From assembly GCF_038443385.1 (NCBI RefSeq), contig NZ_CP151726.1, positions 2,418,001 to 2,482,000 of the forward strand: a stretch of DNA of 64,000 nucleotides. The letters are read 5' to 3'. Below, in pieces: positions 28,291 to 52,917 of this stretch. Source of the DNA: Stieleria varia. GTDB lineage: Bacteria > Planctomycetota > Planctomycetia > Pirellulales > Pirellulaceae. A program made the position numbers and the translations under genes. The first letter of the stretch is position 1; every line of letters starts with the position of its first letter. The notes beneath the pieces were generated by a model. That model was given only the letters and a program-made list of their open reading frames with translations. It was not told the origin of the DNA and did not search any database.

Positions 28291-31200
28291 CTAAAAAGCC
28301 AGTTCTTCCATCAAAAGGCTAATTGCCGAATCGACCGCTGACTCTGGATCTGTTGATTCGGAATTATCCGCGAGCGGCAAATCTTCCGAGCTGCGTGAGG
28401 GATTTTGGGCTTGGCCGGCCCCGGAAACCCGGAGGCTCTGTTCGGCTGCCAGAATCTCGGCCACTGGCAGGACCTCAGCATAAGCGTCATCCTGCTGCGA
28501 AGACATCGCCGCATCGATCAACGCCGACGAATTTCCAGATTGAGTTTGCGTAGGGCTGCCGACCGATTCTGACTCCAATGGGTCGTTCTGCGATCGACGA
28601 TCCGCCGCGATCTGGTTGATCACGACCAACGCATCCAAGGCTGAAACGCGATGGTCGCGATTTGCATCCCGACGCCATTCGTCGTACTGACCTGGATTCT
28701 TTTCGCCCAAATAGTTGACGATGTTCAACGCGTCGAGCGCGGAGACTCGTCCGTCGCCGTTGACATCTGTTGGTGAGGAGAGTGTCGTCACCGACGAGAT
28801 CAGCTCACCTTCGGGATCACTGCCGACGTTCAACTGATTCGACGCTCCGCCGCCAAGGTTGACTTCTTTGAGGAAGTTTTCAACGAAAGTCGAGAAGTCC
28901 AGCAGGTCCACACCGCCGTCGTTGTTCAAATCCAAATACGCCGGGCTCACCGGATCTTCTTGCAAGAACCAGTAGACAAAGCTTGAGAAGTCCAGCAGGT
29001 CGACGCCACCGTCACCATTCCAGTCGGCACGCAAGGAGTACAAACGGTTCTGTGCGTCGGGGGTGATCATTTGGACCAGTCCGCCGGCGGCTGCTGGTCT
29101 GAGTTCCAACTGGTAGACCCCATCCACAATTTCGCCGACGCCCAATTTGATTGTCAACTGTGCGCCATCAGGGCTGAGTTCCAAGTTGGCTTGGGTCAGG
29201 GGAACGACGGTCGAGTTTCCGTCGCTTGGATTGACACCCAAATTCGTCAGAATCACATCCGCCGGAGAGATGTTTGCCAGCGGTTTGTTGAAGTGAACCA
29301 CCAGTTCCCGAAGGCTACTTCGCTGGGTCGACCAAGTTGTCGGTGTTTCTGCCGATCCTGCAAGCGGTGGCGGATCAGCCGCACCGTTGGGACCGTTTGG
29401 CGAAACTTGAAAGAGCACCAGTAGGCTGCCCGTTTCGATGATGAACGGGCCGGTTTGCCCGACCGCAATCGACGTCGTCAACGTGCCGCCCTCGCCGAGA
29501 TCCAAATCGACCTCGTTTCCTGGAATGCCAATGGTTCCGAGCGTGGCAGTCAGTGTGATGTTGTTGCCAACAATATCGGTCCGCGGCAGCCCCTCGATGG
29601 CTTCCGCATCGACGGAGTCTCGTGCATACGCATTGACGACATCGGACGCGTCCAAGATCGATACATCGGCCAACAGATCGACGCTCCCTTTGATCGAAAG
29701 GACATGTCGAACACCCAGATTACCAGCGGTTTCAGCGACGAAGATGTCCCCGTCAGCAAATGCGGAGAATTGGCCTTCCCCGATGACGTCGACATCGAAA
29801 CGATTTCCTGGCAATCCAATTGCTGCACCGGCATCCAAAACGATTTCAGCCGCTCTCACATTTGTTTCGTCGCCTGGGAAAGCGTCCACGATAGAACCGT
29901 CCGCAGTCAGAATCGCAGCTCCCTGTCTCGCAAAGACCTGATTGATTTGCAAATCGCCTGCCGTTTGTGATGCATTGGTTTCATCAATCACGACATCCCC
30001 TGCGGCTCGCGCGATCACGTAGCCACCCGAAGCGGTGTCGATTCTGATCGGTTGATCGATCGTTCCGAGCGACCCTGACGATGCTTCCATGACCACTCGC
30101 TGTCCGGTGATGACCTCACTGTTGCCCCCACTCGCATTGGTGATGGAGCCCGCTACCTTGATCTGAACGCGTTCGTCGCTGGCGGCCTGCACACGCCCGA
30201 TCGCAAGGTCTGATTCGGAACCCAGGAAAATGTGCCGTGGCGAAGTAGCGAAGATCGGACCGTCACTCTTGACGTCTATGTCCTCACGTCGCAGCACACG
30301 AATGTAAGCTGCTTGGTCTTGCTGCGCCGGATTCGTGATCACGGGGGCGATGGTGATGTTTCGGGCAGCATCCGTCTGCAGGGTGCGACCTCCCGTGTCC
30401 AAAGTCATTGCAGCACCGTTGAGGGCGCTGATTTGATAGAACGTTCCGCTGTCCGTGGTGTCGCGGGTGCTGGTTTCCAGCGAGATCGACTGCCCGACGG
30501 AGAATCCGAGAGCGGCCCATGTTCCGGCGTTTCCACCACCAAGAGCCTCCAGCGTGATGGTGTTGCCACCGCCAATGGAGGCAATCACTTCTGACGGCTC
30601 TTGCGTTGCATAAATGATGTCGCCGGGTTCGGCGGCTGCAATCGCCGCAAGTTCGTCCAAGTCCAGCACGGCTGGATTCCCCGCATCGTCGGTGAGTCGA
30701 ATGCTGAATCCGTTTTGATACCTGCCGATCCCTCCGGCGGCATTGATTCGGATTTCACTGCCGACAAGATTTGGTTCTTCGATGACAAACTCCGTGTCGG
30801 TCACATTCAAGAAGTGAACTCCTCGCAGATTGAGCAGCTCCTCCGTTGTCCAGACTTTGTTCGAAGCGTCGATTTCTGCTTCTTCCGCAGCAGTCAACGT
30901 GTAGTCAAAGTCTGGGTTGTACGCGTCTCCCACAGCTCCCCATGTGGCGTGAAGAGCATGGTACTCCTGCGTCCGACCGTCTTCCAACTCCGTCATCTTG
31001 GTCGCGACGAACTGATCCAACTCCGCACCGGTGAGTGACTGCTCGGTTCCCTGCTGCGTGAACAGTGGCGTATAGAAGTCTCGTTCTGCATCCAATAGCG
31101 TCACCCGGAAAGCAGGGTCGTAGACGGACGGGTCTGCCTGACGACTACGGAATTTCCAGTAGGCGTCGTAAAGCTGGTTTTGCGTTTCCTTGATCGCCGC

Positions 31201-34200
31201 AACACGCTCGGTCCGCTTCAGGTCCGCTCCAAGATCTGCCGTCAATTGCAAATCACTCCAGACAGCCGACGTGATTTCGGCGATGGAGCGTTCATCTGTG
31301 ATGTCGATCAGATTGCCGTCAACAATTGCCGCGCTGCCGATGAGCAAGATGTCGACAACACCTCCCGCGATGATTTGATCCACGATCAAAGTGCTGAAGG
31401 GGTTGAGGTAAATGTCACCAGTGGCATGAGCCGACAGTTGGTGAGTAGGATCCTTCACCGCATTGAAGTACCCCGCATCGGCCGCAATACGCCCATCCAG
31501 AGAACCAATGTCTCCAGCGTCCGCAATCAAATCAATCGAATTGCCGTCCACCCCGATAAATCCTGGCCCTCCACCGGGTTGAATGCCACGTTCGGCTCGC
31601 AGTACGACGTCACCGTCTGCAACAGGTGATTGAGAGCCATTTGCGATCACTCGATTAAGCAAGAAATCACCACGAGTTTCAAAAACTCCGATATGGCCTT
31701 GCCGAGTATTGAGCGTGATTCCAGCATTTAATTCTATCTTTTGGAATCGGCCAGTCGTGTAGTCGGTTGTCACCAGATTCAGCGTTCGCGGCGTGGTATC
31801 AACGTACTCGTACACTGCGCCGGGAACTCCACCGGCCGTATGATCGGCCGCCACGCGAACTCGGTGTCCCTCGAAGAGTTGCACATTCTGTCCGGTTGCT
31901 GATTGAGTCGAGATGAAATCAAAGTCGATCTCGCCATTGACATCGGTCCCAAGCAGTTGTGTGGGCGTGCCGATCGATCCACCGGTCGCTGTTTCCGTTG
32001 CGATGTCGATGATACGACCGCCCACGACACCGCGGGATTCTCCGAAAACTGATTTGTCGGAACGGATCGTCGTTGTTCCGGAAGGATTCTCGATCTCATC
32101 CGTGATGTAGACATTGCCTTTGGACTGGATTTCAATCCGTCCTTCGTCATAGCCACTGAATTCAATCGAGATGGGGCGGTCGGCTTCGATGCTGTGGTTG
32201 TGAAGCGTTCGCTCGCCATTTTCGGTAATCGTCGTGGCGTAGTACGTTGTCGTGCCAATCCAATTGGTTTCGTTGTAGTTACAGCAAGTCCTCGTGTTCG
32301 AACTGATATTTTCAGTGCTTGTTGAGTAGCTGTAGCGTTCGCCGTTGGAGGGATCGACAAAGAAATAGACACCCGACTCGGTAATTCGCGGCACACCGAT
32401 CGGCTCGACGGTGCGGCTAATCTCATCTTCCGGATCGGGAGCAACGAAATCGATTCCCAACCAAGACGAGCTGCCATATTTGACGGTGGTTCGCTCCAGG
32501 TTTTCTTCGGCAATGGTCCAACCATAGCGGAGGCCGTTTTGAGGAAGGTGGTTGACTTGAAAGTTGGGAGACAACCGGTCGTTGAACTGCGGCGTGTTGC
32601 GATAGACGTAATCGCCTTGGCGCCGATAGGTTGAGACCACCGGATTGGCAGCCGATCCGCCATTGATGTCTTTGATGATCAGCGTTCCTTCGCCGCGTCG
32701 CGAAACATCCAATCGTTTGATCTCGATGTCGTAATCCTTGGGGTTGTTGATCGAGATTTTCGAGTAACCGCTCAATACACGGATGGCACCATTTTGTGTG
32801 TTCGAGATTCGTCCCGTGATATCGACATATCCACCGGTGGATTCGACTTCCTCAACCACGATGCGTTCGGCACTGAAGTCCCAGCGGACGCGGAAGTCTT
32901 CGTTGGTATTGGACTCCAGGAGTCGTTGCCCCGAGGCACCAAACTCGTTCCTGATCTGCTCGATTTCGGCTGCCATCGCGTCCGTGATAGTCAGGGCGTA
33001 ATCCTTCTTACCGCTCTGAATGACACCGTTGAGATTAACGAAGGCGGCGGAAAGGAAAATGCGAGCACCGGCGAGGTTGAAATCCGCCGGAGCGGGTTGA
33101 GCAAGATGGCTGGTGATCGCCGTGTTCAGCACGGGGGTGCTGGTTCCAAATGTCGAATTTATCTGCGCCGTTCCACGTGGTAGCTCATGCGGACCTGCAC
33201 CGTCGTTGGTTTGAAAAGAGAGCGGTACTCCCACGACATTAAACGTATAGGAAAAATCGAAATCGGTCCATGTCGGATACGCTTGCCCGCCCAATTCATA
33301 AACGCTGCCGACGCCGGGCAGGTTGATGGTGACCGAACCAGAGTTCCCCGCCTGGATGACTTGCTCTTTGGCTTCGACACGTGAGGTGATCGTGATTGAA
33401 CCGGCACCAGACGGCAAGTTTTTCAGGGTGACCTTTCCACTGGAGTTGTCGATGGCGCCAATCACGTTGATGGTCGGCCACGCGAATCGGAATTGTCCGT
33501 TCTGAGTGATCTGGGAACTGGTCACGTCCGCACGATTGTCCACCAGGATGAAGGGATCTTGAGCGGCTACATCCGAAATCAATTGACCGTTGAGGAATGT
33601 GCCTCCCGTTTGATCTGGGATAGTGATTCCCTCCAAACGCAAGAATGCTTGCGAATTATTAATGATTTCAACACTCGCATCGCTGGGCGAGTTCATGGTC
33701 CCATCGCCGTCAATCCGTTCTGCTCGAATGGAAATGGATCCTGCCTGCGCAATGATCGGATCGATCGACAACACCAAAGCGGTACGACGCACGACCTCTT
33801 GCGCGCCGGTCGTTGATCCATTGGGTACTTCCAGAAATCCTTGCTTGTTCAGTTCAGCCCGCAGGCGACTGACCTCGGATTCATAGAAGCTCTTCAGTTG
33901 CGGATTTCCGCTGTACTGAATCAATTGCCGCTGGGCTTCCTCAAGGGCAATGTCGAGTGACGTCTTGGCTACCTCGATCCGTTTGTCGTAGGTGATGTCA
34001 CCAGTGGACTGAGCCGACTCGTTAACGACAAAGGCGTTAGGATTGTTGGGCTGGCTGGGGTCCGTCTGTGTGATACTGTTGATGATCAGTTTTTGATTCC
34101 GAGCAATCCCGGTTTCGACAAGACCAGCGACATTCACAACCCCGCTGGATTGACTATTAGCGGTGCCGGCAAACTGCTCCACGCCCCCGGCTCCGGTCAG

Positions 34201-37200
34201 CGCGTTGATCCCGTTGGTGATTCCTGAGACCCAGTTGACCGCTTTGGCTTGAGCCAAAACGTTGTTGTCACCGAATCGATCGGTATGCAGCAGAATATCT
34301 CCGGCGCTACGTACGGACGACCCTGCCATGACGTCGATCAAATTGGTTTGGATGAAAGTCGCAGTGGCGTCCATCAAGTCGATTGGGATGGCACTTCCCG
34401 CAAAGGTGTCGACACGTGATTTGATGTCGTACTCGTCCTCGTTGAAATCCGTACCAGTACCGGCGGAGAGTTTGATGTCGCGTGTCGCTTCGAGTTTTGC
34501 GCCTGGGCGAACGATAACACTCTTGGTCGGGCGAATGTCAATGGTGGAGATTCCTTCCCCGATGGTTGCGGCACCAAACGTTTCCGAGTTCGCTTGGATA
34601 TCGATCTTGCCGCCACCGCGTGCCCAGGCGGCCAGCTCTCCCTTGACTTTGATGTCGATGTTGTCGCCAAAGATCACACGGGAATCATCCAGTATGGTTC
34701 GGATCGTGTTGTCGTTGATACCACCCGCGGCGAGTCCACCGCTGCGAAGTGTGATTTCATCTTTCGCGGTGATCTCACTGACCGCGTTGAGAACCATTCG
34801 GTCCCCGGCAATTCGTCCGATATTCATCGTCGCGCCGTCACCTACTTCGACCGTGGTGCGAAGCGTCAACTCGGTGTCGTTGTCGACCCCCACGCCCGCG
34901 ACGAGCCCACCAGCGGTCGCATCGACGCTTCCGTTCTCGCCCGGTGCCCGCTTGACGACTTGATTGAGTGCTTCACCACCCATCGCCTGGGCGGTGATGT
35001 TTGCTCCAGCACCTATGTATGAGATCACCGTGGAATCGATCTTGTTGTCCAAATCGCCACCACCACCAGAAATCACTCCGCCGCTGGTGGCTGTCAGGAC
35101 AGCATCATATCGAGTGCGATGCTGAGCGTTGACACGCATGAGGCCAGAAACATTGATGGTTGCCCCATCACCGATTTCTGCTTTCGACAGGCTCGTTGTG
35201 TTTGTGCTCGGAATCGCCACCGCGCCACTGATTCCACCAGCAGCGCCTGCTGCTGTTTCCGCAATGTTTTGGTCGTCGCCAAACGTTTTCACATTGAGAG
35301 TCCGTGCCGTTATGCGAGCGTTGTCACCAATCCTCGCAATCTTTTCGGTGTTGGACGTAGTGGTCGCTTGGGTCACCCCTGCAGCAATCAACCCTAGTGC
35401 CCAACTGCTGGACTCGGCGGTTTGTTCTGTGTAATTCAACGCGATCACATCGACAAAGCTGGTGACATCCACGACAGAATCGGCTGCGATATCCGCATAC
35501 ACCTTGATGTTGTTGGTCGCACTGGTCACGGTCGCATCCGTACCGATCAACAAGCCGCCAGCAGAGCCTTGAGCGAAAGCCAGCGATGGAGGCGCGACGC
35601 TTGGATCGGCGTTTGGATCGACGTCTGGATCAAACGGCAGGTAGAAGCCCATGGGAGGCGAGGCTTCGGCGTATACCTCCAGGCTACTGGCGGAAAATGT
35701 CTTCCCTTTGCTGTCCAGTTTCGCCGTGACGGTCCCGTCCAATGTGATGGTGGCGGTGGACACTCCGACGGCTGCGCCCGTACTGGCTGTCAGCCCGGCT
35801 GCCTTTGCCTTCGCATGGGGCGCCACATCGGTGATGATCCCGACGTAACCTGACGCTGTCACGTTGCTGCCAGATACCAGTGAGTTGGCATTGGATGTTA
35901 CCGTGCTGGTGGCAACGGACCCTGCGGCCGCCAAGCCGACAAGTCCAATGGACACGGCGATCGCAGATGTCTTGACAAGCGTTGTACCGCTGTGAGTCGC
36001 CAAGATCTCCATGTCACCGGTGGTAACCGTACTGTCCAGAACCCGGGCATCTGATGTAGAAGTGATGTCACCGATTGATTCCGCACCTCCACCCGACAGG
36101 GCAAATCCGATACCGATGCTGACAGAGGCCGCCGCAGCAAAGGCATCGGATGTCAACCTCGCCATCTCGCCCGACTCAAGATCAATCCGATCGCTACTGG
36201 TCACATTGGAACGCGCGATGTAGGCATCGATATCATTGTTGATCAAGTTTTCCGACAAAGCGACGGACACGGACACGGCCCCGGAAAACAAACCAGCGGC
36301 GCCGCTCAGCGTGGCCGCTCCGACCAACGAATTGATCGTGGCGTCATTGCAAGCGTGAACATGGATGTAACCGCCCGTGATCCCACTCCCCGTGGAGTCT
36401 TCGATATACGCCCGAATTTGATTCTGAATGGAATTGCTGACCGATGCTCCCGCCCCCGCGACTGCCGCTCCAACAGTTCCCAGTCCCGCTGCCACAGCCC
36501 CTGCTACCACCGTTGCATCAACGAAATCGGTTACCCGAGATTCTACGTTGATACTTCCTAGAACTTGAACGGAACTGTTGTCGATGTATGCGATGATTTG
36601 GGACGAACGATCACCGACACCGGGACCGCCTTCGTCCGTAGGTGTCCCAATCGTGTTCGTCGCGAGGGAAACACCGATTGCCGCTCCAACCCCTGCCGTG
36701 CTGCCACCTCCCACCGCTGCGCTGGCTGCAACGATGATCGCGTTGACCTGTGAAAAACTGAATGCCTGAACGTTCGCACTGCCGCCAGTAATCGTACTGC
36801 CTTCGATGAAAGCAAGCGTTTTGTTGGATAGTTGGTTGTCCGCCGTGGCGCCCGCACCACTGACCGCGACCCCGATCGTCCCCGCGACACCGGCAGACAG
36901 CGCCGCCGCGATCGATGACGCTGTGATGTTCGCGCCCTCATTGCTGGTCAACGAAAGGCCCGAGTTTGCCGCAACAACCGCGTTGGTGATGGACGTTTCG
37001 ACGTGGTTGTTGATTTGGTTGGTGGCAAGCGAGATTCCGATCGCGAGCGACACGCCGACCGAGCCGGACGCCACCAAGGCGACAGACACAGCCGCCGTAT
37101 CTGTCTTGATGGTCGAATTGTCACTTGATGTCATCGTCACGTCGGGAACGTTGATCCCCGCGCCACCACTGCCGCTGATCGTCGAGTTGACATGTTTGCT

Positions 37201-40200
37201 GATCAAGTTGCGTGACTCCGCTCCTGAGCCGGCAGCACCCAAACCGGGACCACCACCCGCAGCAATCGCCGCCGACCCGACCAGCACAACGGAGTTGATC
37301 GTTTGCCCAGCCTGCGAATTGATGTTGAGCCGATTCGACGTGATGCTCGAATTGGTCAAGGTCGCTAGTGCATCAGACGACTGGTGGTTTTCATCGATGT
37401 CATAGCCGATGAAGTTATTCGCGATCGCCGCACCAATCGCCGCCGCCCCGGCCGCTGATGCCGATGCGGCACCGCCGAGGAACAAACCATAGACCCCGGC
37501 ATCGATCGTGGACATCGAATCGGCACTGATCTTCACATCGCTGGTAGCAGTGACCGTCGAATCGGTAATCGATGCGTTGGCGTCCGTAAGAATCACATTG
37601 GATGCCACCGAACCACCGCCCGACAGGCTCAGGCCGGCACTTGCAGAGCCCGTCGCACTTAAGCTGGCTGCGACGGACAACGCATTAATGGTGGAACTGT
37701 CTTTTGTCTCCACCTTCACACTTCCAATATCAGCGTTGACCGTGGTGTTGGTGATCGCCGCACTGATTTGATTGGAGATCTCATTACGGGCGATCGATAC
37801 CCCCACTGCGATCGCAGCACCTTGTGAACCAGAGATCGACGCTGCCACCGATGCGCCGATGGACTGGCTATTGATCAGCGACGTATCGTTTGCGATCACG
37901 TTGATATCGCCGCCGGTTGACTTCACGGTGCCGCTACCTGTGATCAAGGCTGAGACCGTGTTGTTGATTTCGTTGTGTGTGCCCGCGCCAGCTGCGGCTA
38001 AAGAAGCACTCAACCCTCGCCCACCCGCAACGGCGAGGGTCGCCGCGACCGTCAGGGCATCGATCTTCGCAGTATCCGCACTGGCATCTACGGTCACGTT
38101 CCCCGCCGCATTGACCGGCGAATTCTGAATCTTTGCGGTGGTGGTGTTCTCGATGTCGTTGAACGCCAATCCGACACCGATTCCACCCGACAACGTCGTG
38201 CCACCCGAGACCGCGGCGCTGATGGCAAACCCGCCGGCGTCAGCGTTGATCTCTGTGCTATCGATCGCTTGCACCAGCAGATCGCCACTGGAAATCATGA
38301 CGTTGCCGTCGACGATGTCGGCCGTCACGGAATTGGTGACCGAGTTCAATGATAGAGCACCTCCGATGGCCAATGACCCTGTGGTGCTGCTTGTTCCTGC
38401 TCGTCCCGATACAGCACCGGCAATGGTGAGCGAGTCGATGTCGGTATCCGTCTTGGCTTTGACCGAGACATTTCCGCCCGCCACCACATCGACGTTTTCC
38501 AGCAATGCAGACACGTTACTGGTGATGTCGTTGATTCCTATGCTGGCCCCGAAAGAAATCGCAGCTCCCGCGCTACTGCTGGAGGCAGCGGTGATCGCGA
38601 AGCCGCCGCCATCGGCCATGATGATGGAACGATCCATTGCCGAAACGTCGATCGCTCCGGTGGAGGTCACATCACTGTCTTTGACGAAGGCTGCCGCACC
38701 GATTTGGATATCATTGATCGCGACGGCTCCCGCTCCGGCCAAATCCAGCTTGGATCCACCGCCGGTGCTGCTGGTCTGGAGAGCGAACGAGGCACCGATG
38801 ACGACGGATTGAATGTCCTGTGCCGAATCGGTCGAGACGTTCAGCGTTCCCACGCTCAGCTTGTATTGGTCGACGTACGCTTGAACGTTGGAGGTAACGT
38901 CGTTGTACGCCACGGGAACGGTCAGTGCGATCGCGCCCACCTTATTGGAATTGACCTTCGCCTTGGCCGCCCCGTCTTCCGCCGATGGTGTGTCCGCATC
39001 GGTTTTGAATCCCTGTGCCGCTCCCGACATCACAAAAGCAAAGATGTCGCCTGCGGAAGTCGCCGAGACAGTGACCGCGCCGGGAACATTGATGCCGGTC
39101 GCGGCCGGCGCGGCAAGGTCCGCCGTCGTGTCAGCGCGTCCGATGTACGCGCTGACCGTTTGGTCGATCAGGTTGACCCCGACCGAAGCGCCGATGCCGG
39201 CTTGCTCGCCTTTGAGGAAAGCCCCCGCGATGCTGATGCGATCCAGCACGTCCTTGGCCGTGACCGACAAGGTTCCCGCGTCGATCGTCACGCCGGTCCC
39301 GATGCTAGCCCGCGTGTCGCTCTCAAAATCAGCGGCCGAGATCGAAGCGGAGAATCCAAAGTCGGTGGACCCGGTGCCGGTCTGGACAACCGAGACATTA
39401 AAGAAATCACTGTCGGCATTCACCGTCACCCCGGCGGCATCGGCATGGACTTGCGCTCCCTGGCCGATTTGAGCAACAACGGTGTTGTCGGCCAAAGCGA
39501 GCAACATCGCTCCACCGGCCGCATTCTTTCCTGAGACGCCCAGTGGATTGACCAGCTCGGTAAAGAAATCCTTGACCTGTTTGGGATCAAAGGTTTCTCC
39601 GTCTGGTGTCTGGTTGTTTTGATAGGATTCCAGGAAACCGGGCGCGCTGAGGTTGATCGCCGATTGCTGTCCCACGTCGATCAGGATGGCATTGAGCTTT
39701 GCATCCACCAGCACGGACTGCTCATTGGAATTCAGCGTCGCATCTTGATTGATCTTGGCGTTGTCACCGACGCTTGCCAAAACATTGTTGGTGTAATCCG
39801 TGACGACAGCGCTCATCGCCAAAACGAACTTGTCTTCGGCACTTCCCGCCAGGGTCCTGGTTTGTGAAGTGAACAGCCCAGAGAGTCCGAGCAAGCCATC
39901 GTTGAGGGAGTCAAAGCCGCTGAGTCCATTTTCCTGCAAAGTCGTCAGCGGGTTGATCGCGGCACCGACGGAATCCGCTTTCATGGGATAGTCGACATCA
40001 GCCGTGATGGCAGTAGCACGGAATGCGTCGAGTTGGGCACCATTCTGGATAACGGCTTGGGCGTCGTTGTCATAGATCCCGACCCCCACAGCGACACTGA
40101 TTTCAATGTCGTTGCCGGTGGAGTCATCGGTGCCCTTGCGTGTGGCTTCGGATGTCGCCGTCATTCCGACTTCCTGGGTGATGTGCCCATTGACGGTGAT

Positions 40201-42855
40201 GTCCCCCATTGACCGGAGTATTGCCGTCGAGCCGACAATGGCGTGCACGTCGTGCTCGAAGTACGCAATCGAAACCGAGCCCGCCAAATCGAATCCCTTG
40301 CCAGGGTCTTTGTCCGACTCCGTCCCGGTTCTTTGCTCCGCTTGATCGACCGCGTCCATGCCCCGGAATTTTTCGAGCAGCATCTGGCCGGCGCCAAATA
40401 CCTTGTCGATGTCGCCACTGAGCGCCGCAGCCGTAACGGAAGGCCACGGCTGATCTTCTTTGTCGCTGAGCGTCATTCCGGCTTCCGCAGAATTCGACGC
40501 GTCCATGTGTGCTTTGACAACGATCCCTGAGGTGGCGGTCTGTCGGATCAGTTGGTGGGCCGCTCCCGTACCGGCGGTCAAGTCGACAATGCTTGCCGCG
40601 GCAGCTGCAAAGGCACTGGTCGCCAAGCGGATTTGATTGGGTGCGTGCGCATCGACGATGACGTGGTAGCCGAAATTGTCTTCGAGACCGCGAATCGGCG
40701 CGTCGGGCAGATTGATGGTCGCTCGCGTGGTCGGTGCAGCATTTCCACCTGCTCCGAAACTCGCAAACTCGCGCGCAATCGTCTTCGTGGGATCGGTTCC
40801 ATAGAAAACCAAATCGCCCGTTTGCAATCCGTGACCGGCTGGTAGCGTGATCGTATCTTTCGTGTGATCCACCGCTGTACGAGCGTCAAAGGTCTGGACT
40901 GCTTGCGTGTAGTAAAACCCGTGCTCGCCATTGGCCGGGGCCACGAAATCGATGAAGTCCGCCGCGCCAGGCAGCTTCAGCTTGACCTGATTACCGACGC
41001 GGGTGACGTCGTAAGTTTGATTCTGGGCCAGCCCGGCGATGGGAGCGAGTACCGTATCAGCGTCTTCTCCTGCCGCCAGTTTCGAACCCAAATAGGTCAA
41101 CTGAGTCACGCCGGCTGGCAATGTGGGCAGACTGATCAACCCGTCATTGGTTCCGGCTTCTGCGGTCACATCCGTGGCCGCAAACTTGATCGCCGCCAGC
41201 TTGGTCAAAGTGTGTTGGCTGCCGGTGGGAACCTGTCGAGCATCCAAATCGATGCTGTCCGCTGAGACCAAGCGAACCGTTTGTGAAATCAAACCGTTGC
41301 CTGGGGGAACCGCAGGAGGATCGCTGGCTTCGCGAACGATATACGTTCGTCCGTCGACCAGGCCGATGTCGGTTTTGGCACCTTCATTGCCTGGTCCAGC
41401 GTCGTAAGTAAACCTTTCGCCCACGCGGAGTGGATGAGTCGCGGGTATGTTGTTGAGCGTGATTTGATCATTGGCTGCGGAGACATCCGTCGCAGCGAAC
41501 GACAAGGCTTGGTTGGTTGCGTTCCCATTGGACGTGATCGTGCCGTGAACTTCCGCCTTGATCGTTGCGTCGTCGACCCCAACAGCCAGCGACGCGCCGC
41601 CAAAGCCGTCATCAAAAATGGACGTGCTGGCGGTCACTTCATTGACCACCTTGCCTTGCGCGTCAACCGTTACCGAACCGCCGGACGTGATGTTGGTGGT
41701 CTGGCTGACCATGATGGTCGAGTTTTCTGTGGTGTATGCCGCAGCCACATTGAACGCAGCCTCAACCGAGTTGCTGGAGCCCACGGCATTGGCATCAGCC
41801 CGCGCGGTCACAGCGGATTCGCTGCTTGCATTGGACGTGATGTCCACCGAGCCGCCCGCATTGATCACGGTGTTGCCCTGCAAGTTCACCGTGGCTGAAG
41901 ACTTGGATTGACTGTAGCCCAACGAAATCAAGACCACCGAGCCCAGTGTGGTCGCTCCGTTCATCGCAATCGTGTTGAAGGAAGCATCTGCCGACGCGGT
42001 CGAGCCAATGGTCACCGACGCGTCGCTATTGATCGTAACGTCGGTCAACGACACCGCTGCGGATGCATCATGGATTTTTACTTGACCGGAGATCGGTGAC
42101 AACGCACTGATCGCGAGTTGCGGAACTGCCTGCAGTTTGCCGATCAACTCTTGCCCAATGTCCTCTCCAAATCCACCGATTTCGTCCCATCGACTGCTCG
42201 TCTCACCTTCGGCGGTGATCGACACATCGTCTCCTCTCAGGGTTGCTCCCGAGAGCGTAATCTTTGCATCACGGGGAGCGTAGAGCGCTGGCGCGATCGT
42301 GTCGGCAAAGACAGACAAAGCAATCGGTGGCTTGTCCGTGGCGGTCAGCGTGATGTCGCCCGCGCTGAATGCGCCGCCGCCTACAATCACCGAGGAAAGT
42401 GTTGATGCGCCGAGAACAATCTCTCTCGCGGTCAGCGTGATGTCACCCGAGTTTCCTTCTGAGACCGGGCTCGGCGCGCTATTCAAATCTGCCGTATTGA
42501 GTGATCCACCCGTCTTGAACTCGATCTTGTTCGCCGTCACCTCCAGCGAGTCACCGTCTAAACCGACGGCCGAATCCACCAGCAGCGAGTTCGCTGTGAT
42601 CTGCACCTTGTCGCTGTCGATGTCTCCAACGGCAACCGTTCGAGAGAATGAGCCATCAGCAAGATCGATGACCCGAATTTCGTTGCCGGACACTTGCAGT
42701 TTCAGATCCCGGGCGGGCTCATCCACGATGAAGTCGGCAGCCAAAAGTTGTCGTGACTCAAGTTGTTCCATCAACATCCGCCGACGAAAGGTTCTCTGAC
42801 GGGGCCTGGATGGGCGGGGTCGACTAAGAACCTGGCGACGATGAGAGCGATGCAT
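28291..42855 (-). CDS. Giant LEPR-XLL repetitive surface protein with two dockerin pairs
   Basis: 4854 residues from the ATG at 42855 (MHRSHRRQ); the frame stays open to 42978 but the extra 41 residues precede the Arg-rich leader. LESRQLLA is at residues 32-39. The body is very rich in Ala, Ser, Thr, Gly, Val, Ile, Asp and Asn. It consists of many loosely repeated blocks (for example SSTINALSVAASLSATGSAS, then GGGSVASNVIL, then DANASITDSTVTATSDVKI), compatible with a long parallel beta-helix adhesin of filamentous-hemagglutinin type. Near the C-terminus lie DWNGDGGVDLLDFSSFVYWFL and DLNNDGGVDLLDFSTFVENFL, followed by DVNGDGRVSALDALNIVNYLG and DANRDHRVSALDALVVINQIA, giving two dockerin-like pairs. 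It is probably an exported fibre or adhesin. The partner is unknown. Confidence 0.88.
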   Translation of the reverse strand: MHRSHRRQVLSRPRPSRPRQRTFRRRMLMEQLESRQLLAADFIVDEPARDLKLQVSGNEIRVIDLADGSFSRTVAVGDIDSDKVQITANSLLVDSAVGLDGDSLEVTANKIEFKTGGSLNTADLNSAPSPVSEGNSGDITLTAREIVLGASTLSSVIVGGGAFSAGDITLTATDKPPIALSVFADTIAPALYAPRDAKITLSGATLRGDDVSITAEGETSSRWDEIGGFGEDIGQELIGKLQAVPQLAISALSPISGQVKIHDASAAVSLTDVTINSDASVTIGSTASADASFNTIAMNGATTLGSVVLISLGYSQSKSSATVNLQGNTVINAGGSVDITSNASSESAVTARADANAVGSSNSVEAAFNVAAAYTTENSTIMVSQTTNITSGGSVTVDAQGKVVNEVTASTSIFDDGFGGASLAVGVDDATIKAEVHGTITSNGNATNQALSFAATDVSAANDQITLNNIPATHPLRVGERFTYDAGPGNEGAKTDIGLVDGRTYIVREASDPPAVPPGNGLISQTVRLVSADSIDLDARQVPTGSQHTLTKLAAIKFAATDVTAEAGTNDGLISLPTLPAGVTQLTYLGSKLAAGEDADTVLAPIAGLAQNQTYDVTRVGNQVKLKLPGAADFIDFVAPANGEHGFYYTQAVQTFDARTAVDHTKDTITLPAGHGLQTGDLVFYGTDPTKTIAREFASFGAGGNAAPTTRATINLPDAPIRGLEDNFGYHVIVDAHAPNQIRLATSAFAAAAASIVDLTAGTGAAHQLIRQTATSGIVVKAHMDASNSAEAGMTLSDKEDQPWPSVTAAALSGDIDKVFGAGQMLLEKFRGMDAVDQAEQRTGTESDKDPGKGFDLAGSVSIAYFEHDVHAIVGSTAILRSMGDITVNGHITQEVGMTATSEATRKGTDDSTGNDIEISVAVGVGIYDNDAQAVIQNGAQLDAFRATAITADVDYPMKADSVGAAINPLTTLQENGLSGFDSLNDGLLGLSGLFTSQTRTLAGSAEDKFVLAMSAVVTDYTNNVLASVGDNAKINQDATLNSNEQSVLVDAKLNAILIDVGQQSAINLSAPGFLESYQNNQTPDGETFDPKQVKDFFTELVNPLGVSGKNAAGGAMLLALADNTVVAQIGQGAQVHADAAGVTVNADSDFFNVSVVQTGTGSTDFGFSASISAADFESDTRASIGTGVTIDAGTLSVTAKDVLDRISIAGAFLKGEQAGIGASVGVNLIDQTVSAYIGRADTTADLAAPAATGINVPGAVTVSATSAGDIFAFVMSGAAQGFKTDADTPSAEDGAAKAKVNSNKVGAIALTVPVAYNDVTSNVQAYVDQYKLSVGTLNVSTDSAQDIQSVVIGASFALQTSSTGGGSKLDLAGAGAVAINDIQIGAAAFVKDSDVTSTGAIDVSAMDRSIIMADGGGFAITAASSSSAGAAISFGASIGINDITSNVSALLENVDVVAGGNVSVKAKTDTDIDSLTIAGAVSGRAGTSSTTGSLAIGGALSLNSVTNSVTADIVDGNVMISSGDLLVQAIDSTEINADAGGFAISAAVSGGTTLSGGIGVGLAFNDIENTTTAKIQNSPVNAAGNVTVDASADTAKIDALTVAATLAVAGGRGLSASLAAAGAGTHNEINNTVSALITGSGTVKSTGGDINVIANDTSLINSQSIGASVAASISGSQGAAIAVGVSIARNEISNQISAAITNTTVNADIGSVKVETKDSSTINALSVAASLSATGSASAGLSLSGGGSVASNVILTDANASITDSTVTATSDVKISADSMSTIDAGVYGLFLGGAASASAAGAAAIGAAIANNFIGYDIDENHQSSDALATLTNSSITSNRLNINSQAGQTINSVVLVGSAAIAAGGGPGLGAAGSGAESRNLISKHVNSTISGSGGAGINVPDVTMTSSDNSTIKTDTAAVSVALVASGSVGVSLAIGISLATNQINNHVETSITNAVVAANSGLSLTSNEGANITASSIAAALSAGVAGTIGVAVSGAGATADNQLSNKTLAFIEGSTITGGSANVQAFSFSQVNAIIVAASAAVGGGSTAGVGAAIGVSLATNTIGTPTDEGGPGVGDRSSQIIAYIDNSSVQVLGSINVESRVTDFVDATVVAGAVAAGLGTVGAAVAGAGASVSNSIQNQIRAYIEDSTGSGITGGYIHVHACNDATINSLVGAATLSGAAGLFSGAVSVSVALSENLINNDIDAYIARSNVTSSDRIDLESGEMARLTSDAFAAAASVSIGIGFALSGGGAESIGDITSTSDARVLDSTVTTGDMEILATHSGTTLVKTSAIAVSIGLVGLAAAGSVATSTVTSNANSLVSGSNVTASGYVGIITDVAPHAKAKAAGLTASTGAAVGVSTATITLDGTVTAKLDSKGKTFSASSLEVYAEASPPMGFYLPFDPDVDPNADPSVAPPSLAFAQGSAGGLLIGTDATVTSATNNIKVYADIAADSVVDVTSFVDVIALNYTEQTAESSSWALGLIAAGVTQATTTSNTEKIARIGDNARITARTLNVKTFGDDQNIAETAAGAAGGISGAVAIPSTNTTSLSKAEIGDGATINVSGLMRVNAQHRTRYDAVLTATSGGVISGGGGDLDNKIDSTVISYIGAGANITAQAMGGEALNQVVKRAPGENGSVDATAGGLVAGVGVDNDTELTLRTTVEVGDGATMNIGRIAGDRMVLNAVSEITAKDEITLRSGGLAAGGINDNTIRTILDDSRVIFGDNIDIKVKGELAAWARGGGKIDIQANSETFGAATIGEGISTIDIRPTKSVIVRPGAKLEATRDIKLSAGTGTDFNEDEYDIKSRVDTFAGSAIPIDLMDATATFIQTNLIDVMAGSSVRSAGDILLHTDRFGDNNVLAQAKAVNWVSGITNGINALTGAGGVEQFAGTANSQSSGVVNVAGLVETGIARNQKLIINSITQTDPSQPNNPNAFVVNESAQSTGDITYDKRIEVAKTSLDIALEEAQRQLIQYSGNPQLKSFYESEVSRLRAELNKQGFLEVPNGSTTGAQEVVRRTALVLSIDPIIAQAGSISIRAERIDGDGTMNSPSDASVEIINNSQAFLRLEGITIPDQTGGTFLNGQLISDVAAQDPFILVDNRADVTSSQITQNGQFRFAWPTINVIGAIDNSSGKVTLKNLPSGAGSITITSRVEAKEQVIQAGNSGSVTINLPGVGSVYELGGQAYPTWTDFDFSYTFNVVGVPLSFQTNDGAGPHELPRGTAQINSTFGTSTPVLNTAITSHLAQPAPADFNLAGARIFLSAAFVNLNGVIQSGKKDYALTITDAMAAEIEQIRNEFGASGQRLLESNTNEDFRVRWDFSAERIVVEEVESTGGYVDITGRISNTQNGAIRVLSGYSKISINNPKDYDIEIKRLDVSRRGEGTLIIKDINGGSAANPVVSTYRRQGDYVYRNTPQFNDRLSPNFQVNHLPQNGLRYGWTIAEENLERTTVKYGSSSWLGIDFVAPDPEDEISRTVEPIGVPRITESGVYFFVDPSNGERYSYSTSTENISSNTRTCCNYNETNWIGTTTYYATTITENGERTLHNHSIEADRPISIEFSGYDEGRIEIQSKGNVYITDEIENPSGTTTIRSDKSVFGESRGVVGGRIIDIATETATGGSIGTPTQLLGTDVNGEIDFDFISTQSATGQNVQLFEGHRVRVAADHTAGGVPGAVYEYVDTTPRTLNLVTTDYTTGRFQKIELNAGITLNTRQGHIGVFETRGDFLLNRVIANGSQSPVADGDVVLRAERGIQPGGGPGFIGVDGNSIDLIADAGDIGSLDGRIAADAGYFNAVKDPTHQLSAHATGDIYLNPFSTLIVDQIIAGGVVDILLIGSAAIVDGNLIDITDERSIAEITSAVWSDLQLTADLGADLKRTERVAAIKETQNQLYDAYWKFRSRQADPSVYDPAFRVTLLDAERDFYTPLFTQQGTEQSLTGAELDQFVATKMTELEDGRTQEYHALHATWGAVGDAYNPDFDYTLTAAEEAEIDASNKVWTTEELLNLRGVHFLNVTDTEFVIEEPNLVGSEIRINAAGGIGRYQNGFSIRLTDDAGNPAVLDLDELAAIAAAEPGDIIYATQEPSEVIASIGGGNTITLEALGGGNAGTWAALGFSVGQSISLETSTRDTTDSGTFYQISALNGAAMTLDTGGRTLQTDAARNITIAPVITNPAQQDQAAYIRVLRREDIDVKSDGPIFATSPRHIFLGSESDLAIGRVQAASDERVQIKVAGSITNASGGNSEVITGQRVVMEASSGSLGTIDQPIRIDTASGGYVIARAAGDVVIDETNASQTAGDLQINQVFARQGAAILTADGSIVDAFPGDETNVRAAEIVLDAGAAIGLPGNRFDVDVIGEGQFSAFADGDIFVAETAGNLGVRHVLSIKGSVDLLADVSILDASDVVNAYARDSVDAEAIEGLPRTDIVGNNITLTATLGTIGIPGNEVDLDLGEGGTLTTSIAVGQTGPFIIETGSLLVLFQVSPNGPNGAADPPPLAGSAETPTTWSTQRSSLRELVVHFNKPLANISPADVILTNLGVNPSDGNSTVVPLTQANLELSPDGAQLTIKLGVGEIVDGVYQLELRPAAAGGLVQMITPDAQNRLYSLRADWNGDGGVDLLDFSSFVYWFLQEDPVSPAYLDLNNDGGVDLLDFSTFVENFLKEVNLGGGASNQLNVGSDPEGELISSVTTLSSPTDVNGDGRVSALDALNIVNYLGEKNPGQYDEWRRDANRDHRVSALDALVVINQIAADRRSQNDPLESESVGSPTQTQSGNSSALIDAAMSSQQDDAYAEVLPVAEILAAEQSLRVSGAGQAQNPSRSSEDLPLADNSESTDPESAVDSAISLLMEELAF

Positions 42856-43064
42856 GGGGGGGTAGCTTTCGAAGGGCGTAGGAAAAACGCGGGGGCGTAG
42901 GTTGTAGATCAACACACTGGCGACGCAACGGATGTACACGTGCACATCGTCACAAACCTTCGCCCCTTTACCTATCAATTCACGAATGCGTTACGCGGAA
43001 AATGTTTTCGGTTTCGCAGCCGTTGAACTGGCAAGAGCAGAGGAGAAGAAACGTGACGGAGAGG

Positions 43065-49311: not shown

Positions 49312-49540
49312 CCAACCGTGACACGTGATTGTTAAGCGGGACGCTCTCGATCGCGCCGCAGCCGATTTGGAAGAGTGAAATATCTGTTCCCACGGGACAG
49401 AAAGAATGGAAGCCAGGAGAAAAAGAAGTCAGGAAGCTTGAGATCCCCATCATCGGTAGCGATATTTCTGTTCGTACGCCCCGCTCCGTGTTCCTGACGC
49501 CCCTTTTTCCTATCACTTTCCATCCTCATTGGTCGTCACC

Positions 49541-50515
49541 ATGTTCCCGCTGATTATCGGAATCGTCTTCGTTGCGTTGGTTGTCATCGCTTTGTTTGCG
49601 GTCATGCGGTCGCGAACCAGTCCAACGCAAGCGAAATCGTATCCGGCGAATTTGCCAGTTCTGGACACTGGGCTCAAAGCGATCGATCTATTGGCACCGC
49701 TGCCGCGAAGCGGAGATGTATTGATTTCTGGTGATCCAGGAGCGGGTGCAAAGACCATTGCCGGTGAGATGATGTACCGGTTACAGAACCATCCGTCATT
49801 GCCATATCAAACACTCTGCCTGTTGGACGCCGGATCGAAAGATGCCGAGGTCATGTCGGCAGAGTTTTCGGAGACTCTGCCAGATTCGATTCAACGGCGA
49901 ATGGTGCAATCAATTGCAACGCGAGATGTGATGGACTTGGTTCAACAGTCATCTCGGGAATCTCGTTGTGCAATTGTGGTCTTCAGTCAAGATGAACGTT
50001 TTATTCATCTGTTCCGCGACGCGATCCGCGAAATGCGAACAGAGATTCCTGCATCATCCCGTCTGTTGGCGATCATCGTCACCGAGTCGATGCATTGGAC
50101 GACTTGTGACGCAACGGTTTACTTTTCACAGTCGGTTGCCGAGTCGGGTGTGTATCCAGCGTTGGATCCTCAACGCTCCTCCTCTCGACTGAGCGACGAT
50201 CCCCGAGTGCCTGCGCATCGACGTGAGATAGCCGCACGGCTAAGACGCTTGCTCGCTGACGTCGTCGAGAGCCTATACCCGGACGCTCTGGGCGACCCGC
50301 AGTGGATGTTTAATCAACGCGGTGCCAACAAAGCACAGGGGCAAGCGTTTCGATTCCTCAGTCAACTTCTGTTTACGGCTGAGCCCTACACGGGAAAGAA
50401 GGCGGCGTGCATTGCTGCCGACGACGCGGCGATTTGGTTCCGGCAAATCCTTGACGGACAATTCGAGCAGCTGCCCCCGCAAAGCTTTCTCTATCAAAAC
50501 AAATTGCCCCACTGA
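49541..50515 (+). CDS. Membrane-anchored F1-ATPase beta-like P-loop protein with altered Walker A
   Basis: 324 residues from the ATG at 49541 (a TTG lies four codons upstream). Residues 2-22 form one transmembrane helix (FPLIIGIVFVALVVIALFAVM). Then comes VLDTGLKAIDLLAPLPRSG, nearly the classic lead-in to the P-loop of the F1 beta subunit. The loop itself reads GDPGAGAKT (64-72), with one extra residue between the last Gly and Lys compared with GxxxxGKT. Later ESGVYPALDPQRSSSRL (201-217) matches the beta-subunit segment that precedes the arginine-finger region. The catalytic GERxxE motif is absent. It is likely a degenerate, membrane-tethered paralogue of the rotary ATPase catalytic subunit. 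Whether it binds nucleotide is uncertain. No other ATP synthase gene is in the window. Confidence 0.75.
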   Translation: MFPLIIGIVFVALVVIALFAVMRSRTSPTQAKSYPANLPVLDTGLKAIDLLAPLPRSGDVLISGDPGAGAKTIAGEMMYRLQNHPSLPYQTLCLLDAGSKDAEVMSAEFSETLPDSIQRRMVQSIATRDVMDLVQQSSRESRCAIVVFSQDERFIHLFRDAIREMRTEIPASSRLLAIIVTESMHWTTCDATVYFSQSVAESGVYPALDPQRSSSRLSDDPRVPAHRREIAARLRRLLADVVESLYPDALGDPQWMFNQRGANKAQGQAFRFLSQLLFTAEPYTGKKAACIAADDAAIWFRQILDGQFEQLPPQSFLYQNKLPH

Positions 50516-51039: not shown

Positions 51040-52917
51040 TCAGGGAACACCTGGCGTCTCGGTTATCGGAAACAACTGCGGATCCAGGTCGTGGAGCTTT
51101 TGTCGCAGGGAAGGCAGGATCCGCTCGGCGGCCGCCATTCCAAGCTGTGCGGTTTGTCTCGTGTCTTCGAACGCCGCGATGTCGACGTCCGCAACATCCG
51201 GGGTGATCGTTACGTCCGCGGACAAGGAACCGATGCGGCAGAGATTGCGGTCCTGGACCTGACGCACCCGCCGAATCACCTGGGTAATGCTGGGTTTTCT
51301 CATCTGCCCGGTCGGCGTATCAGGCTTGTTTCCGGCAAACTCTCGCTCCATCCTCGACGCCACGTCCACGCCGATGACGAAGTTTGCCCCGCGGCGGATC
51401 AGTGCGTCGGCGGGAATCACATTCAGAATTCCGCCGTCCACCAGAACTTTTCCGTCTCGCAGATACGGAGGGGACAGTTGGGGCAAATTGATGCTTTCGG
51501 TGATCGCATCGACGCAATCGAACTGAGACCGGATGACTTCCTCGCCGCTGACCAGATCCGCGCTGACGGTTTCGATCGGGATCGGTAACTGCTCCAGACG
51601 CCAGCGTTGAAAGTATCGTCGCAGCATGGGATCCCATCCACGCGTTCGATACTTCCAAATCAAATACCACTTACCGCCACCCGGCAGCATCCTAAAGAAA
51701 CGCGGCAGTTTCAGATCCGACGGATAGGATCCCAGGGCAAACTCGGCGGAAAACCCCGCACAGTAGGTCACTCCCAACATTGCCCCGACACTTGTGCCGG
51801 CCATCAAGTCCACCACGATCCCGGCGCGTTCCAAAGCTTGAAAGACTCCCAGATGAGCCATTCCACGCGCGGCACCTCCACCGAGCGCTAAACCGATCTG
51901 CACGCCACGCAGCGCGTGGACGATGCGTTCGGTTCCCGCGTTCAGACCGTCGGGTAAATCACCATAGTGCAGAAGTTCGTCGTCGCCATGGTGGACAACA
52001 AAATGACGCGTGATCATCTTCTGCAGTTCAGGTGCCAAGGGGATCACGCGTTCAGCGGCGGACACCACCCAGATCACGTTCAACTTGTCACGAAAGGCAC
52101 GCGTCTGGGCGACCAAATCGGACAGCATGGTTTCCAGTTTGGCATGGTTCTCCGGGGTGACGACAAAGAACGCTTGCTGAACGTATTGCAGCAAAGGGGA
52201 CAGGCGTTGCGGGTCGGCAGTCTTGGTTTCCGATTCAAACTCCAACACCACACGATCCATCTTGGTCCACTTTCCCAACTGAGCCCGGATCTCCGCCGTC
52301 TCCTCGCCGCTGAACCGAAACGTTGTCTCACTTGGGATTTGGTCGGGATCATCGGTGATCCTGCCGATGGACTCACCCAGATCGATCAGTCGATCCACCA
52401 CGGCGTTAGTGACCTGCCGGGTGTGTTGAGAGACGTGAATGATCGCCAGTGATTTGGCCCACTCACGTTTTTGGGACGAGTCCAAAAACTCCGACATCGG
52501 AACGGCCGCGTCACGCAGTAGATTGCGTGCGAGAACGGGCAAGGACTCCATGAGGGAAACCGCCAAGTCGTGCGGGATTTCCAAAGCCCAGGTCGGCTCC
52601 TCCGCGATCAGGTCCACCGTCGCGGGTTCTCCACGCACCAATTCGATCACACCGACTTGATCGTGAGTCCCGAATCGTGCGATAGGGATTCGGGGTTGAT
52701 CCCGATGAGACGCGAGGCACAATCGCCCGCTGACGATCAGCCAAATCGCCGCAGGGATCTCGCCTGCGGAATAGACGATCTCGTCTTGCGCAAAGCTGCG
52801 GATCCGGACACCCGACGCGGCGACTTTGCGGCACTCCTCCTCGGCCAATCCACGACTGGCCGGGTGCAGCAATAGGAACGACAGGATTTCCTCGACAGAT
52901 TCGGCCATCGGCAACAT
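51040..52917 (-). CDS. Patatin-like phospholipase with cyclic-nucleotide-binding-like domain (NTE type)
   Basis: 625 residues (an in-frame ATG three codons downstream, at 52908, is also possible). Residues 15-135 resemble a CRP/cNMP-binding beta roll (IRSFAQDEIVYSAGEIPAAIWLIVSGRLCLAS). After a helical linker, the patatin domain starts at about 340: oxyanion hole GGGAARG (346-352), nucleophile Ser376 in GTSVG, and catalytic Asp in the VDGGILNVIPADAL motif. This is the bacterial relative of neuropathy target esterase and acts as a serine phospholipase or lysophospholipase at the membrane. The phosphate-binding FGExALL-type cassette of true cAMP binders is not evident, so ligand binding may be lost. 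Confidence 0.9.
   Translation of the reverse strand: MLPMAESVEEILSFLLLHPASRGLAEEECRKVAASGVRIRSFAQDEIVYSAGEIPAAIWLIVSGRLCLASHRDQPRIPIARFGTHDQVGVIELVRGEPATVDLIAEEPTWALEIPHDLAVSLMESLPVLARNLLRDAAVPMSEFLDSSQKREWAKSLAIIHVSQHTRQVTNAVVDRLIDLGESIGRITDDPDQIPSETTFRFSGEETAEIRAQLGKWTKMDRVVLEFESETKTADPQRLSPLLQYVQQAFFVVTPENHAKLETMLSDLVAQTRAFRDKLNVIWVVSAAERVIPLAPELQKMITRHFVVHHGDDELLHYGDLPDGLNAGTERIVHALRGVQIGLALGGGAARGMAHLGVFQALERAGIVVDLMAGTSVGAMLGVTYCAGFSAEFALGSYPSDLKLPRFFRMLPGGGKWYLIWKYRTRGWDPMLRRYFQRWRLEQLPIPIETVSADLVSGEEVIRSQFDCVDAITESINLPQLSPPYLRDGKVLVDGGILNVIPADALIRRGANFVIGVDVASRMEREFAGNKPDTPTGQMRKPSITQVIRRVRQVQDRNLCRIGSLSADVTITPDVADVDIAAFEDTRQTAQLGMAAAERILPSLRQKLHDLDPQLFPITETPGVP

Follow-up and report, generated by a model that had tools for sequence, protein, structure and literature searches.

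The window analysed here is a stretch of 64,000 nucleotides, at 2.418–2.482 Mb of the single-contig, 9.72 Mb genome of the marine bacterium Stieleria varia. On its plus strand, an ORF at window positions 49541–50515 (stop codon included) encodes a putative F1-beta-like pseudo-ATPase of 324 aa, and both the ORF and the motifs quoted for it in the original prediction were present in the sequence. A 939-aa ORF on that strand ends 229 bases ahead of its start. Downstream, on the opposite strand, are a 116-aa ORF and then a gene for a patatin phospholipase with a cNMP-binding domain (51040–52917). The intergenic segment at 49333–49370, ahead of the 324-aa gene, has three further copies of approximately 35 bases elsewhere in the genome, 86–88 % identical. 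The window also holds a repeat-rich minus-strand ORF of 4895 aa (28291–42978), with DxNxDGxVxxxD stretches near its end that we take to be dockerin-like.

The relationship of the 324-aa protein to the beta subunit of F1 was assessed by profile, sequence and structure comparison. It matched the Pfam family PF00006 at E=2e-7 and the NCBIfam atpD model TIGR01039 at E=4e-20, the latter with 72 bits and therefore below the AtpD cut-off of 462.85. The second-best NCBIfam match, to the N-ATPase beta model TIGR03305, reached 60.7 bits against a cut-off of 752, and the profiles for Mycoplasma F1-like beta proteins reached 49.3 (NF045858, cut-off 850) and 38.9 bits (NF045934, cut-off 570). Matches to FliI/SctN families were at most 25.2 bits, below the family cut-offs. 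In a six-frame search of the genome at E 0.001, the gene itself was absent from the five places found. A phmmer search of PDB chains reached E=8e-23 with a hybrid F1 and 6e-18 with the highest-scoring natural beta, the best match covering two stretches of the protein (residues 37–79 and 186–317), and HHalign gave a probability of 99.2 against F1 beta. Two AlphaFold2 models (mean pLDDT 62.4 and 61.8) contained an N-terminal helix (residues 2–24 or 2–25) and a six-strand alpha/beta core; for each, the top 50 Foldseek rows were F1 or ATP synthase, with low TM-scores of 0.2–0.4 by query length. The C-terminal domain was poorly placed in these models, and in the first much of this domain had pLDDT below 50. 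The similarity is far beyond chance, and the protein is homologous to F1 beta over the nucleotide-binding core and the C-terminal domain. The F1 beta origin that had been proposed holds.

In the alignments, the motif that precedes the P-loop in beta, PVLDTGLKAIDLLAPL, lies at residues 39–54 (49655..49702, plus strand), and the best-conserved beta segment, DATVYFSQSVAESGVYPALDPQRSSSR, at residues 190–216 (50108..50188, plus strand). Residues 217–324 (50189..50512, plus strand) correspond to the C-terminal helical domain of beta, with RFLSQ, EPYTG, ILDG and QSF. This domain and the YPA segment are the parts of beta that have been kept best.

The catalytic features of beta were largely degenerate. 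Where AtpD has the Walker A motif GGAGxGKT, the protein reads GDPGAGAK (residues 64–71; 49730..49753, plus strand). The loop had been predicted to contain an extra residue; phmmer, MAFFT and HHalign each placed GDPGAGAKTIAGEMMYRL on the GGAGxGKT region without gaps, with E76, five residues past the loop, still paired with the Glu of true beta, and an insertion was rejected. Instead, substitution has put Ala in the Lys place (A70) and Lys in the Thr place (K71). The catalytic glutamate of GER is absent, residues 95–101 (49823..49843, plus strand) reading LDAGSKD where beta has GERTREG. A probable Walker B remnant, VVFSQDER, lies at residues 146–153 (49976..49999, plus strand) in the place of LLFIDNIF, a register set by hand from the strand order, as automatic aligners put the stretch elsewhere and disagree. 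On this register the Walker B Asp (FIDN) has probably been lost to Ser, its place likely reading FSQD. The place of DELSEED reads DALGDPQ in both MAFFT and HHalign alignments.

The overall architecture is also reduced. The N-terminal beta barrel is absent, with the helix and a loop preceding the core; the absence of both barrel and GERxxE is as predicted. The distance from P-loop to GxYPA is 139 residues, compared with 177–191 in 68 beta-type rows (which count the organism’s own AtpD twice and include one FliI-like protein); a second distance among the close relatives is 137 residues. Approximately 49 residues of beta are missing between the two motifs.

A single transmembrane helix was predicted by hydropathy and in the models at residues 2–24 (49544..49612, plus strand), in agreement with the original prediction. 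The best 19-residue Kyte–Doolittle mean, at the N-terminus, is 3.3. The hydrophobic run extends to M22 and is followed by RSR, so under the positive-inside rule the remainder of the protein is predicted to be cytoplasmic.

The gene stands alone, outside any atp operon, as had been predicted. The true beta gene lies at genome position 8,008,982, compared with 2,467,541 for the 324-aa gene, 5.5 Mb apart along the contig. The genome thus carries a true AtpD besides the 324-aa protein, and a lack of true AtpD in carriers does not hold for this genome.

Conservation of the locus was compared across the genus. The 939-aa neighbour was found in 14/14 Stieleria genomes, including S. varia itself; one of its orthologues has an in-frame TAA (genome G009). 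A 148-aa gene adjoins it in all 13 other genomes. No orthologue of the 324-aa gene was found at the equivalent place in these 13 at E 0.001 (best 0.013), and none of them carries the gene. When longer stretches from the same 13 genomes were compared, reporting queries with matches in two or more stretches, no window ORF downstream of the 324-aa gene recurred past the 939-aa gene. Three of the 13 stretches contain a 31–34 % match to the 536-aa ORF that flanks the 939-aa gene on its opposite side. The best matches of the patatin gene lie elsewhere in Stieleria genomes, the best within the genus being 46 % identical. Codon adaptation of the 324-aa gene is 0.70, the lowest among the 12 genes compared (0.73–0.81 for the 11 other window genes; 0.60 for random synonymous choice), and a recent acquisition is therefore possible.

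Relatives were sought at increasing taxonomic breadth. The first contig scan, with the single protein as query, found nothing. Among 40 genomes including S. varia, 39 had a match, and among the matches listed none but its own spanned more than approximately 135 residues. Searching the 241 family genomes with the full-length protein gave two matches whose length and coverage set them apart from true beta; weaker matches in the 241-genome searches, and in a further search with the N-terminal 196 residues, were taken collectively as true beta-type by frame length and match position, among the matches listed. A profile of the window protein and these two relatives scored 435.8, 425.9 and 267 bits on the three sequences from which it was built, and the evidence lies in the gap to the next best at 38.7 bits rather than in the scores themselves. 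This gives three carriers among the 241 family genomes, S. varia included. With the same profile, the window gene alone was found in 396 genomes of the order and 392 of the phylum, which were drawn evenly from the larger groups and had 6–7 candidates scored per genome at E 1e-10 and 1e-9. Finally, patterns matched 164 stretches in 84,980 species genomes, of which 11 encode a relative; two are the family relatives above, while eight of the other nine resemble ordinary beta and one a FliI-type protein. The three-protein family is very rare.

Both relatives come from uncultured planctomycetes of the same family as Stieleria. The first (G488; JAGQPD010000962.1, Planctomycetales MAG HKST-UBA31) is truncated by a contig end, has at least 285 aa and carries a helix at the equivalent place. 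The second (G618; DMPQ01000436.1, Planctomycetaceae MAG UBA11682) contains an NN gap, with its last part homologous too, and has no helix; membrane tethering is thus not universal among the three proteins. The corresponding Walker A sequences are GQPRTGMW and GEPRSGVR, so that the Lys is absent in all three proteins, with A in the window protein and M and V in the relatives. The helix is thus shared with one of the two relatives, and GDPGAGAKT itself is not conserved. The GER Glu is likewise absent in all three (MAFFT), and they share EALP-like and DERF..LFRD-like stretches beyond the beta motifs. The window protein scored 112 bits with the G488 protein and 104 with the G618 protein, whereas no true-beta row in the comparison exceeded 81. 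In a tree the three formed one clade with support 100/99, on branches of 6–8 changes per column; match scores, taken apart from the tree, also rank them closer to one another than to true beta, except that the second-best match of the G618 protein is the Paenibacillus protein described below. The absence of the same residues from these two distant relatives suggests that ‘dead’ motor parts, put to some other use, form a rare family.

The three loci showed no common neighbour gene. The G488 relative is preceded by formylmethanofuran dehydrogenase subunits B, A and C and a 249-aa protein, and the G618 relative has a 496-aa uncharacterised gene on one side and a pirin on the other, an FAD oxidoreductase lying at a greater distance. 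As contexts differ across the three genomes, a conserved operon partner was rejected. The dehydrogenase genes adjoining the G488 relative (contig C902, 1635–5534) include a subunit B split into two ORFs in different frames, the larger of which was the one matched to the family. PF00006 matches numbered five in G488 and four in G618, one of the latter being the relative itself, the two MAGs being 78–80 % complete. Phage or plasmid cargo was also rejected: viral contigs held no relative with either the three-protein profile or the Paenibacillus protein as query, PHROGs and PADLOC gave no match at E 0.01, and the G488 protein had no plasmid match. Several records labelled as phage or plasmid hold an ordinary bacterial atpD and are probably host DNA or whole chromosomes.

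The tblastn search of plasmids matched 36 records, and among the best 10 of these was a hypothetical protein, WP_152404100.1, from the Paenibacillus cellulositrophicus megaplasmid NZ_CP045296.1 (5794–6852 of the extracted stretch), which lies outside atp genes in the stretch examined. Like the window protein, this 352-aa protein has no barrel, no Walker A Lys and a shortened distance from P-loop to GxYPA: its Walker A reads ARPNMGQL, with Gln in the Lys place and Q-L in the K-T places, GIYPA lies 130 residues on, and a C-terminal domain follows. Its match to TIGR01039 has E=3e-35. Unlike it, a weakly predicted Cro/C1-type HTH at residues 18–67 (PF13443 E=0.002, below cut-off) replaces the membrane helix, and the protein is nearer to true beta, its best match being a true beta at 123 bits versus 70 for the window protein. 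As a query it matched 110 plasmid records, and among the 45 listed all annotated features besides itself were ATP synthase subunit beta. A common origin with the planctomycete proteins is favoured by the tree, in which it groups with the three on one side of a branch with support 97/97, and by its place as second-best match of the G618 protein (70.5 bits, with true beta at 50). However, the end branches are saturated at 9–10 changes per column and its own best match is a true beta, so a common origin is not claimed; since it is nearer to true beta than to the window protein, the Walker A Lys may have been lost twice. We raise only tentatively the broader idea of a portable, barrel-less dead F1-beta domain, fused to an anchor in planctomycetes and to an HTH in Paenibacillus, and used in regulation to bind or to sense, perhaps nucleotides, which would make a pseudo-ATPase class derived from the rotary motor itself.

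Taken together, we consider it probable that the 324-aa protein is a catalytically dead, membrane-anchored descendant of F1 beta with a binding, adaptor or regulatory role rather than a motor role. It would be expected not to hydrolyse ATP and, because the barrel is missing, would be unable to stand in for beta in an alpha3beta3 ring. Held by the helix, the RecA-like core would sit on the cytoplasmic side of a membrane and, as an adaptor or regulator, would bind a partner or a ligand there. The earlier idea of a repurposed catalytic subunit holds, and a regulator or scaffold role would fit the predicted features.

Among the alternatives, the protein could be a dominant-negative or assembly regulator of the cell’s own F1Fo, its C-terminal domain binding alpha, gamma, delta or epsilon at the membrane. 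Retention of the C-terminal domain and YPA segment as the best-kept parts, together with an anchor that puts the protein where Fo is, would suit such a role, but the true beta gene is unlinked, the rotor contact DELSEED is lost, the 13 other Stieleria genomes manage without the gene and the G618 protein lacks the anchor; we regard this as unlikely. An active, divergent ATPase using the Lys one position later (GAGAKT) is less likely again. The window protein does retain K-T in the loop, and K71 could conceivably reach a phosphate, but the K-T places of true beta read M-W and V-R in the relatives and Q-L in the Paenibacillus protein, and the GER Glu is lost in all three planctomycete proteins.

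The extent of the N-terminus depends on the start codon. The reading frame is open from 49460, with alternative starts at TTG 49529, four codons upstream, which keeps the helix, and at ATG codon 22 (49604), the only one that drops it. A soluble protein made from codon 22, with the helix untranslated, would be in keeping with the lack of a clear ribosome-binding site ahead of 49541 on inspection of the sequence and with the helix-free G618 protein. It is as improbable as an active enzyme, given that the codon score, above zero in the annotated frame only, peaks in the first 54 codons and that G488 has a helix at the equivalent place.

Selection on the gene was examined from nucleotide identity at codon positions 1, 2 and 3, for which random expectation is approximately 0.26 and alignment on the protein favours positions 1 and 2. 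Identities were 0.47/0.61/0.28 for the window gene and G488 (218 codons), 0.47/0.54/0.28 for the window gene and the first part of G618 (162 codons) and 0.42/0.56/0.30 for G488 and G618 (144 codons). The last part of G618 (56 codons) gave 0.54/0.52/0.38 with the window gene, not significant alone (p=0.18). In the three long comparisons, second positions were 54–61 % identical and third positions 28–30 %; third positions have thus almost reached saturation, with second positions still conserved, a pattern that speaks against decay of an atpD copy. A non-functional pseudogene, open by chance, would account for the lost catalytic residues, the low codon adaptation and the sparse distribution (3/241 family genomes, S. 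varia included, and 0/13 other Stieleria genomes), but is the least likely reading and is disfavoured by these identities, by the frame being kept in three genera and by the EALP-like and DERF..LFRD-like stretches common to the three beyond the beta motifs. On these comparisons, the gene encodes a maintained protein, a putative pseudoenzyme of F1 beta in which the catalytic residues are lost and the protein is kept.

The beta subunit belongs to the most highly conserved of all proteins. FliI is a repurposed relative of beta that keeps the Walker motifs and, to our knowledge, the known repurposed beta relatives (FliI and the Mycoplasma F1-like proteins) keep these motifs. The 324-aa protein shares with AtpD (TIGR01039, PF00006) the TGxKxIDLLAP motif, the RecA-like core, the GVYPALDP segment and the C-terminal helical domain; it differs in lacking the barrel, Walker A Lys, GER Glu and DELSEED, in the probable loss of the Walker B Asp, in the deletion of approximately 49 residues, in the added helix and in its stand-alone gene. 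An N-ATPase is reported in Rhodopirellula baltica (PMC4154653); compared with N-ATPase beta (TIGR03305), the 324-aa gene is stand-alone and short and its product is without catalytic residues. The Mycoplasma F1-like ATPases of types 2 and 3 and the gliding subunit (NF045934, NF045858) are a precedent for reuse of F1 beta in another complex; as reported in PMC3369863, types 2 and 3 have Walker A and B motifs, and their genes sit beside those for alpha-, gamma- and epsilon-like partners. Among the titles listed in searches of the open-access literature, none concerned a catalytically dead or membrane-anchored F1 beta.

The three proteins constitute a conserved line without Walker A Lys or catalytic Glu and without the barrel that forms the ring, in which the fold is kept and two of three members have gained an anchor, as would be expected of a motor part turned into something else. 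The genus Stieleria has cultured strains, in which a partner of the protein could be sought by ordinary pull-down.
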